This document shows, piece after piece, positions 51,548-54,358 of a stretch of DNA of 64,000 bases. Every line of letters begins with the position of its first letter. Position 1 is the first letter of the stretch. The DNA is from Parafannyhessea umbonata (lineage in GTDB: Bacteria; Actinomycetota; Coriobacteriia; Coriobacteriales; Atopobiaceae): the NCBI RefSeq assembly GCF_900111255.1, contig NZ_FOGP01000002.1:310001-374000 (forward strand), read 5' to 3'. The notes beneath the pieces were generated by a model. That model saw nothing but the letters and a program-made list of their open reading frames with translations. It was not told the origin of the DNA and searched no databases. A program made the position numbers and the translations under genes.

Positions 51548-52399
51548 CTACGATCTTCGGAACACAAGGTAGCGGTTGAGCGAGGAGGTCCTTCCGTCAG
51601 ACGAGAAGTTCCCCAACAGGCGGGCGGAATCCCCCACCGCGCCCGCGAGCCGCTCAACCTCCGCATCGCCGAAGCTGTGGCAGTAGCGCCAGGCGCCCGG
51701 AAGCCGCTGCCAGCCCAGGAGGTAGTCGCCCGGACCAAGGTCCTGCGCGTCCAGCCCAAGGGCGTCGAGCGCCTGGGCGGTCGTCGCGCGCGCACGCTCG
51801 GCCAGGCCGGGCTCGCTCATGAAGCGCCAGAGCGAGACGCAACAAAGACCCCCGGGGTGCGTCGCGGCCACGAGGCCCTGCAGGAGCCGCTGCCGCGCGG
51901 CCTCCCCGGGCACGTGGTGAAGGAAGCCGAAGGAGACCACCAGGTCGAAGCCGCGCCCGAGCTCGGGACCGAGCCCCGCCGTCGCAAGGCGCGTGGGAAG
52001 GTCTCCGTCCAGGAGTGCCCCCACCACGTCGACCTTGTGGGTCGCCACGGCCACGCGCCCCGAAGACACGGCGTCAGGGGCCGTCGCCATGAGGTCCTCG
52101 CAGTTGTCGACGGCGTGGTAGTCAATGCGCCGCCGTGGGAGCGCTCGTGCCAGGAAGGTCGCAAAGCGCAGGTTGCCTGCGGCAAGGTCGAGCACGCGCA
52201 GGGAGGCGCCGCCCGCATCCCACGGGGCGGCCCGGTCGCCCACCAGATGCGACAGGCAGCGGTCCCACCCCGGCCAGCGATTGTGTCGGGTAGCGGAAAA
52301 CGAGCTCGCCTGCAGGCGGTAGAACTCGCTGTTCAGCCGGCTCATGCGGCGCGCGACGTCGTCGGCCATGTCGTCCATGTCAGGTCTTCTGGTATCCAT
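51548..52399 (-). CDS. Trm9-like SAM methyltransferase, probable tRNA wobble-uridine modification
   Basis: A 283-residue class I methyltransferase. The N-terminal sequence LNSEFYRLQASSFSATR followed by NRWPGW recalls Trm9/ALKBH8-type enzymes, which methylate 5-carboxymethyluridine-34 in tRNA. SAM-binding motif I is LRVLDLAAGNLRFATFLA, and VSFGFLHHVPGE matches the catalytic-core region. It lies divergent from, and 117 bases away from, elp3, whose product makes the carboxymethyl group. The start may be ATG at 52399 or 52378; neither has a good ribosome site. The alternative is a general small-molecule methyltransferase. Confidence 0.72.
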   Translation of the reverse strand: MDTRRPDMDDMADDVARRMSRLNSEFYRLQASSFSATRHNRWPGWDRCLSHLVGDRAAPWDAGGASLRVLDLAAGNLRFATFLARALPRRRIDYHAVDNCEDLMATAPDAVSSGRVAVATHKVDVVGALLDGDLPTRLATAGLGPELGRGFDLVVSFGFLHHVPGEAARQRLLQGLVAATHPGGLCCVSLWRFMSEPGLAERARATTAQALDALGLDAQDLGPGDYLLGWQRLPGAWRYCHSFGDAEVERLAGAVGDSARLLGNFSSDGRTSSLNRYLVFRRS

Positions 52400-52502
52400 A
52401 GCAGCATTCTAAGCCCAGCCGGCAGCGGACGGCACATGGCGGAAAAGTGGCGAGGGCGCATGCGCGCGCTTCTGGGCCACGCGCGCCCCCACGTCGCGCC
52501 CC

Positions 52503-52517
52503 TATAATGGCTTCCTA
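52503..52517 (+). promoter_or_regulatory. Promoter -10 for a leaderless elp3 mRNA
   Basis: An exact TATAAT (52503-52508) ends 8 bases before the elp3 ATG, so transcription should start at or next to the A of the start codon. No ribosome site is possible in between. A -35 box is not evident. Confidence 0.6.
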
Positions 52518-54358
52518 TGGAAGAACTCTTGCTAGACATACTCGGGCGGCTGCGCGCGCTGCCGCAGGGGCAGGACGCGCTGGGGCACGAGGCGCTCGAG
52601 GCCGTGGTCCGCAGGCACAACCGCGGCATCCGTGACAACGCCAAGCACCTCTCGAAGAGACGGATACTCCCCTTCTACCTGCACGTTCGACAGAACGACC
52701 CCGACCGCTGGGCCAGCTGGAGCATCGACGAGGAGCTCGAGCGGCGCCTGCTCAAGACGTTGCGCATGAAGCCCCGACGCACGGCCTCGGGCGTCGCGAC
52801 CATCACGGTCATCACCCGCCCGCAGCCCTGCTCGAGCGACTGCGTCTACTGCCCGTGCGACCTGCGCATGCCCAAGAGCTACCTTTCGAACGAGCCGGCG
52901 TGCCAGCGCGCCGAGCGCTCGTTCTTCGACCCGTACCTGCAGGTGACAGCCCGCCTGCGCGCGCTCGACCAGATGGGCCACGCAATCGACAAGATCGAGC
53001 TCATCGTGCTGGGCGGCACCTGGAGCGACTACCCACGTGCCTACCAGATCTGGTTCGTTCGCGAGCTCTTCCGCGCGCTCAACGACTGGCCGAACGTGGA
53101 CCAGGACCGCCACGAGCGCTGGAGGCTCTACCACGACCTGGGCATATCAAGTGACCAGGAAGACCTTGCCGCCTTCGTCGCGGGCGAGCAGGCCAAGGTG
53201 GACGCCGGACAGAGCAGCTACAACGAGTCGTTCAGGCGGCTCTTCTCCCAGAGCGAGCCCCACCAGAGGGCCGGCGACGCCATGGCCGCAACGCTGGACG
53301 AGCTCTACGCCGAGCACGCGCGCAACGAGCGCGCGGCGCACCGCGTGGTGGGCCTGGTCATCGAGACGCGTCCCGACACCGTGACCCCGCAGGCGCTCGA
53401 GCTCTTCCGCCAGCTGGGCTGCACCAAGATCCAGATAGGCATCCAGTCAACACGGCAGGAGATTCTGGACGCAAACCAGAGAGCAACGACAATCGCGCAG
53501 GTCAAGCGCGCGTTCTCGCTCATCCGCCTGTACGGCTTCAAGATCCACTCGCACCTGATGGTGAACCTCGTGGGCGCCACGCCCCAGGAGGACAAGCGCG
53601 ACTTCCAGACCTTCGTGCAAGACGCCGGGTTTCTGCCCGACGAGATCAAGCTCTACCCTTGCGCCCTTGTCGCAGGCACGCGCCTGGTCGGTCTCTACCG
53701 GACAGGCGCGTGGCGACCCTACGACGAGGACGAGCTGCTGGACGTGCTGGTAAGCGACACCATGGCCACCCCGCCCTACATCCGCATCAGCCGCATGATT
53801 CGCGACATCGGGGCCGACGACATCCTGGCGGGCAACAAGAAGACCAACCTGCGCCAGATGGTCGAGGGCAAGATCGAGCGCGCGGGGCTGGCCGGCAAGG
53901 TGCAAGACATCCGCTTCAGGGAGATCAACCAACGCAACATCAGGGCCGACGACCTCACGATGGACGACTACCCGTACGAGACGGCAACCACGCGGGAGCA
54001 CTTCCTGCAGTGGGTCACGCCACAGGGGCGCATCGCGGGCTTCCTGAGGCTCTCGCTCCCCAAGTGGGAGGCCATCCAGGACGGCCAGACCGACGTCGCC
54101 GCGGACGAGCTTCCCACCGGAGCTGGCGAGGCCATGATCCGAGAAGTGCACGTCTACGGAATTGCCGCCCACCTGGGCAAGTCGGACGTCGCGGCGCAGC
54201 ACCGCGGCCTGGGACGCGCGCTCGTCAGCCGGGCCGTCGACATTGCGCGCGAGGCGGGCTACGCCCGGCTCAACGTGATCAGCTCCGTCGGCACGCGCGA
54301 GTACTACCGCCACCTGGGATTTGCAGACGCGGGACTCTACCAGAGCGTCGAGCTCTAG
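52517..54358 (+). CDS. elp3: Elp3-like tRNA uridine-34 carboxymethylase (radical SAM/GNAT)
   Basis: A 613-residue bacterial Elp3. The radical SAM part has the cysteine cluster PCSSDCVYCPCDLRMP, then KSYLSNEPACQRA and VLGGTWSDYP, all Elp3 hallmarks, and IETRPDTVTPQALELFRQLG. The C-terminal GNAT acetyl-CoA domain (residues about 490-610) shows AQHRGLGRALVSRAVDIARE and SVGTREYYRHLGF. Elp3 attaches carboxymethyl to U34 of tRNA using acetyl-CoA and SAM. No other Elongator subunits are expected in bacteria. It is divergent from the Trm9-like gene. The mRNA looks leaderless. Confidence 0.94.
   Translation: MEELLLDILGRLRALPQGQDALGHEALEAVVRRHNRGIRDNAKHLSKRRILPFYLHVRQNDPDRWASWSIDEELERRLLKTLRMKPRRTASGVATITVITRPQPCSSDCVYCPCDLRMPKSYLSNEPACQRAERSFFDPYLQVTARLRALDQMGHAIDKIELIVLGGTWSDYPRAYQIWFVRELFRALNDWPNVDQDRHERWRLYHDLGISSDQEDLAAFVAGEQAKVDAGQSSYNESFRRLFSQSEPHQRAGDAMAATLDELYAEHARNERAAHRVVGLVIETRPDTVTPQALELFRQLGCTKIQIGIQSTRQEILDANQRATTIAQVKRAFSLIRLYGFKIHSHLMVNLVGATPQEDKRDFQTFVQDAGFLPDEIKLYPCALVAGTRLVGLYRTGAWRPYDEDELLDVLVSDTMATPPYIRISRMIRDIGADDILAGNKKTNLRQMVEGKIERAGLAGKVQDIRFREINQRNIRADDLTMDDYPYETATTREHFLQWVTPQGRIAGFLRLSLPKWEAIQDGQTDVAADELPTGAGEAMIREVHVYGIAAHLGKSDVAAQHRGLGRALVSRAVDIAREAGYARLNVISSVGTREYYRHLGFADAGLYQSVEL

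Follow-up and report, generated by a model that had tools for sequence, protein, structure and literature searches.

A divergent gene pair encoding Elp3 and a Trm9-like methyltransferase: a proposed two-enzyme pathway to mcm5U34 in bacteria

Introduction

Can a bacterium convert U34 of its tRNAs into mcm5U34 with only two dedicated genes? The question is raised by a locus of Parafannyhessea umbonata (Atopobiaceae) in which a gene for Elp3 stands head to head with a gene for a class I SAM methyltransferase. The locus belongs to a stretch of 64,000 nucleotides that was analysed as a whole (hereafter, the window), from a genome of 2.06 Mb that is 99.8% complete. The initial annotation of this DNA read the two genes as a possible two-gene bacterial mcm5U34 pathway, a reading that is supported by the analysis reported here.

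The combination of Elp3 and Trm9 is already known in archaea and eukaryotes; what appears to be new is the divergent pair in bacteria, in at least five phyla and without MnmEG. The eukaryotic system consists of Elongator (Elp1-6) together with Trm9-Trm112 or ALKBH8, and eukaryotic Trm9 and ALKBH8 require Trm112. Among archaea, Elp3 and Trm9 were predicted in 2008 for Haloferax volcanii and Sulfolobus solfataricus (PMC2584109). In S. solfataricus the gene for Elp3 forms a cluster with that for a Trm9-type methyltransferase (PMC2584109, PMC5372719), and H. volcanii is reported to contain mcm5U34 (PMC7663514). For bacteria, a review of 2017 stated that genes similar to Trm112-dependent methyltransferases (Trm9) had not been found and that U34 is modified by MnmEG (PMC5372719), and a review of 2020 placed bacterial Elp3 in Dehalococcoides, without direct evidence for its nucleoside product (PMC7663514). 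Titles and abstracts, with subscription papers and preprints mostly uncovered, yielded no description of a bacterial Trm9-like partner of Elp3; under the same limits of coverage, no literature was found that names Elp3 together with Chloroflexi.

Results

The anatomy of the locus was observed directly. The methyltransferase gene lies on the reverse strand at positions 51548..52399 of the window and encodes 283 amino acids, the proposed carboxyl methyltransferase that would turn cm5U34 into mcm5U34. The Elp3 gene lies on the forward strand at 52517..54358 and encodes a radical SAM and GNAT/KAT protein of 613 amino acids, the proposed synthase of cm5U34 from U34. Both positions and the head-to-head arrangement given in the initial annotation were confirmed, with 117 bp of sequence (52400..52516) common to the two divergent starts and separating their start codons. 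A consensus scan of this intergenic region revealed no complete sigma-70 promoter. A TATAAT at 52503-52508 ends 8 nt 5' of the Elp3 ATG (52517), and given this position the elp3 mRNA may be leaderless. The genes that flank the pair, an iron-dependent alcohol dehydrogenase and a Mem_trans permease, are outside the conserved unit: in a comparison of 26 diverse loci, the methyltransferase and Elp3 were the sole genes shared by the whole set, and a third conserved gene beside them was sought in these loci without success.

When GTDB genomes were scanned with no query but the methyltransferase, 60 loci were recovered. In 57 of them an Elp3 gene lies head to head with it on the other strand, and for 50 of these 57 the distance from start to start is below 760 bp. 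Two of the three loci without Elp3 (L056 and L075) are cut near a contig end. Carriers belong to Coriobacteriia, Propionibacteriaceae, Myxococcota, Pseudomonadota, Acidobacteriota and Chloroflexota MAGs. So frequent a pairing greatly exceeds what chance would give, and uniqueness to one genome, which would have refuted the initial annotation, is ruled out by this spread over several phyla. The divergence that the initial annotation proposed to test in Coriobacteriia is conserved there, and it is not confined to them. The methyltransferase of the window has its closest relatives in Atopobiaceae (Olsenella and Parafannyhessea), and within the family of the window (140 genomes) the methyltransferase was detected in 70 genomes, Elp3 in 71 and both in 69. 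The gene-tree distances of the two proteins correlate (r = 0.87), part of which is due to shared genome ancestry.

Co-occurrence was also observed directly in a class where the pair and MnmG both exist, that of an Anaerolineaceae MAG of the Chloroflexota (L088). The 199 genomes sampled from this class include 91 with the methyltransferase, 101 with Elp3 and 57 with MnmG. Elp3 accompanies the methyltransferase in all 91 genomes, and the methyltransferase accompanies Elp3 in 91 of 101. The two genes lie within 5 kb of each other in 69 genomes, divergently in 68 of these pairs, and in the other 22 carriers they are on different contigs in all but one. Note that Elp3 was found without a detected methyltransferase in genomes of this class (G169, G181, G217, G237, G245, G256, G261, G281, G289 and G354) and of the family of the window (G052, which is about 100% complete, and G070). 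These 12 genomes remain unexplained and count against a two-gene pathway.

MnmE-MnmG, with MnmC/MnmM, fills the same niche in bacterial U34 C5 modification with unrelated enzymes, and it is absent from the pair-carrying genomes tested. Neither MnmG (TIGR00136) nor MnmE (TIGR00450) was over cut-off in any of the 140 genomes of the family, in a search where 9 of 14 control genomes were over cut-off. MnmG was likewise over cut-off in none of 21 genomes with diverse pairs, for which MAG completeness is not given. Within the Chloroflexota class, not one of the 199 genomes combines MnmG with Elp3 or with the methyltransferase. The MnmG genomes did give two methyltransferase matches, both very weak (E about 1e-9), which were counted as unrelated. 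Fisher p values were 2e-23 for Elp3 against MnmG and 8e-20 for the methyltransferase against MnmG; they ignore shared ancestry and are given for scale only. The initial annotation had allowed that the pair replaces or supplements MnmEG. The first alternative holds and the second does not, since MnmEG is absent wherever it was tested in carriers.

Near-matches to MnmG and MnmE in the genome of the window were rejected, as they correspond to TrmFO (501 bits, TIGR00137) and Der (546 bits, TIGR03594). The methylene-THF-dependent TrmFO for m5U54 is encoded in this genome at G000:C4:21108-21434. A separate observation concerns genomes with neither system. These make up about half of the family of the window, including the whole of genera g33 and g34 (G083-G121), in which Elp3, the methyltransferase, MnmG and MnmE all fall below cut-off and which apparently have no known C5-U34 pathway at all. 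In the Chloroflexota class, 41 of the 199 genomes are without Elp3 and without MnmG.

Judged from its sequence, the Elp3 of the window is complete and keeps all tested catalytic residues; that it forms cm5U34 is inferred. It scores 405.7 bits against TIGR01211 (curated cut-off 350), which bears out its description in the initial annotation as a clear bacterial Elp3, and PF16199, the Elp3 C-terminal domain, has one match in the genome. We aligned the protein to the structure of Elp3 from Dehalococcoides mccartyi (DmcElp3, 5l7j), likewise a bacterial, stand-alone enzyme with identical catalytic residues. The key residues of the DmcElp3 acetyl-CoA pocket, K77, K193, E386 and Y441 (PMC6367351), correspond to K159, K342, E543 and Y596, and the cysteines of the radical-SAM CX3CX2C motif are C105, C109 and C112. 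Among 55 Elp3 homologues from paired loci, the three cysteines, K159, K342 and E543 are invariant and Y596 is present in 54. This core of radical-SAM cysteines and KAT residues is also common to the Elp3 of eukaryotic Elongator.

Differences from DmcElp3 were seen as well. The protein of the window carries a 78-residue insert in its radical-SAM half (residues 190-267) that is missing from DmcElp3 and that spans 62-84 residues across the paired loci examined; the methyltransferase or tRNA might dock onto this insert. Furthermore, it has no Cys at the positions aligned to the presumed Zn-linker cysteines (C310, C312 and C315, an assignment made in the present analysis).

The relation of the methyltransferase to Trm9 had to be established by other means than family databases and single sequences. 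Pfam recognizes only generic methyltransferase domains in the protein of the window and NCBIfam nothing, and scans of all 46 homologues against both returned generic methyltransferase families only. A single-sequence phmmer search against the PDB gave nothing useful. A 126-residue fragment of Trm9 matched other loci weakly and did not recover the methyltransferase from the genome of the window; a profile was consequently needed to show the Trm9 link. When a profile of the 46 homologues (A1) was searched against all PDB sequences, the top chain was Trm9 of Yarrowia lipolytica (5cm2_Z; E 4e-8, 36.1 bits), followed by a runner-up at 29.3 bits, with CmoA at 22.0 bits. A profile of the C-terminal part alone returned nothing significant from the PDB. 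Note that the relationship is judged from solved structures only and rests on a single solved Trm9 sequence.

The hhalign alignment of A1 with 5cm2_Z covers 184 columns from end to end (Prob 99.0) and pairs TR-x-x-PW, HH, GDYLLGW/QDVMVPW, RYCH/RYYH and a C-terminal N-x-[YW]-[LV]-V between the methyltransferase and Trm9. The residues of the Trm9 substrate site are R29, H115, R241, Y243 and N271 (PMC5372719). Four of these five are matched in the methyltransferase and essentially invariant, R29 by R38 (45 of 46 homologues) and H115, R241 and N271 by H161, R238 and N275 (46 of 46 each). The position of Y243 is occupied by C240, with Cys in 43 of 46 homologues and Ala or Ser in the remainder. The C-terminal part of 5cm2_Z was reached with a yeast Trm9 sequence as bait; the alignment itself left the bait out and used the 5cm2_Z chain only. 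For N275 the assignment was taken from the DNWW motif of the Yarrowia chain, the bait sequence being three residues long there. Conservation extends to the N-terminal motifs quoted in the initial annotation, which are real family motifs: each of F26, Y27, F34, T37, R38, W42 and W45 is kept in 44-45 of the 46 homologues.

On the basis of sequence and residue conservation we class the methyltransferase (METHYLTRANSFERASE) as Trm9-like, and we do not claim that it is Trm9 itself. Trm112 (PF03966) had no match in the genome of the window, and matches to PF03966 in some relatives lie inside open frames of at least 320 aa. With no Trm112 found and Y243 changed to Cys, the name Trm9-like is used instead of Trm9. 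Because Trm112 was undetected in this genome, activity of the bacterial enzyme is expected not to depend on it. The likeness to Trm9 proposed in the initial annotation stands as far as the best PDB match goes and needs qualification beyond it, in that the methyltransferase forms a Trm9-like branch of its own.

The same residues bear on what the enzyme does. One alternative is that Elp3 makes cm5U34 but the methyltransferase acts on that nucleotide, or on the anticodon loop, in another way (2'-O-methylation, say, or activation towards ncm5U, or formation of another terminal product), leaving an end nucleoside other than mcm5U. We hold this to be unlikely, though it deserves to be kept in mind. 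Pairing and co-occurrence show only a common pathway, the family has Cys where Trm9 has Y243, and yeast has ncm5U besides mcm5U, with ncm5U reported to accumulate in trm9 mutants (PMC3110198). Against this alternative, the family retains substrate-site residues that are believed to position cm5U34 in Trm9, and by sequence no PDB chain matches better than that of Trm9.

Structure prediction was less informative. The AlphaFold (AF2) model of the methyltransferase (pLDDT 92.6) is predicted to have an ordinary class I methyltransferase fold, and its structural matches include METTL6 (Z 20.5 over 229 residues) and CmoM (8joz; Z 17.2, 206 residues aligned). Foldseek placed Trm9 (5cm2_Z) at rank 5; judged on fold only, its score is equalled or exceeded by those of METTL6 and several further class I enzymes. 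The solved 5cm2_Z chain is short (184 residues), so that its absence among the VIA matches listed is uninformative. The candidates are separated by sequence and residue conservation and would not be separated by this modeled fold. The match to CmoM could be taken to mean that the protein resembles CmoM in function, or is some other carboxyl methyltransferase, with a different modified uridine (e.g., cmo5U34) as its substrate, and that its gene is placed beside Elp3 for regulation. Very little speaks for such a role, given that CmoM is not in the best 60 profile matches, that CmoA scores lower than Trm9 in the same search, and that the methyltransferase never occurs without Elp3 in the 199 Chloroflexota-class genomes. 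Action on a small molecule or a protein, with divergent pairing as incidental gene order, is slightly more improbable still: it can draw on the generic database families and on a fold common to many small-molecule enzymes, but the divergent pairing is kept across six bacterial groups with no other neighbour family comparably conserved, the co-occurrence with Elp3 holds even with genes on different contigs, both genes and MnmG are mutually exclusive, and membership in an unrelated small-molecule clade, which would have refuted the initial annotation, is contradicted by the best PDB match.

Discussion

We consider it likely that Elp3 and the Trm9-like methyltransferase constitute a minimal two-enzyme pathway that stands in for MnmEG, with cm5U34 as the product of Elp3 and mcm5U34 as its ester formed by the methyltransferase. 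The reactions, the tRNA specificity, the order of steps and the independence from Trm112 are inferred, and no nucleoside was measured. In the first step, C5 of U34 would be carboxymethylated by Elp3 alone, through radical chemistry that draws on acetyl-CoA and SAM, to yield cm5U34 in tRNAs of the NNA/NNG type. One archaeal Elp3 was shown to form cm5U34 in vitro on its own (PMC13315578). In the second step, the Trm9-like enzyme would move the methyl group of SAM to the carboxylate of cm5U34 and give mcm5U34, a reaction carried out elsewhere by Trm9-Trm112 (PMC5372719). In a third step, MnmA may lead to mcm5s2U in the tRNAs that it thiolates; MnmA is present in the genome of the window (320.7 bits) and mcm5s2U is therefore possible.

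The proposed pathway can be set against the known systems. Eukaryotic Trm9 shares with the bacterial methyltransferase the matched positions R29, H115, R241 and N271, whereas the genome of the window has no detected Trm112, its methyltransferase has Cys at Y243, and the two genes are divergent neighbours. Elp1, Elp2 and Elp4-6 of eukaryotic Elongator were not seen adjoining the bacterial pair, a statement limited to the locus neighbourhood. The archaeal systems of H. volcanii and S. solfataricus likewise combine a stand-alone Elp3 with a Trm9-type methyltransferase. However, archaea keep Trm112, undetected here, and thiolate through Tuc1/NcsA-type enzymes where the genome of the window has MnmA.

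The more general proposition, which we regard as probable with somewhat greater reserve, is that Elp3 and a Trm112-independent Trm9-like enzyme form a widespread, multi-phylum bacterial system of two dedicated genes that excludes MnmEG and makes mcm5(s2)U34, a nucleoside of eukaryotic type. Among the carriers are several named cultured strains, some of them isolated from the human gut; cultured carriers include Slackia piriformis, Collinsella tanakaei, Olsenella intestinalis and P. umbonata. If the proposition is true, bacterial mcm5U would be directly testable in cultured carriers. It would also provide a two-protein model, free of Elongator and of Trm112, for a disease-relevant eukaryotic pathway, and it would explain how NNA/NNG codons are decoded in bacteria without MnmEG.
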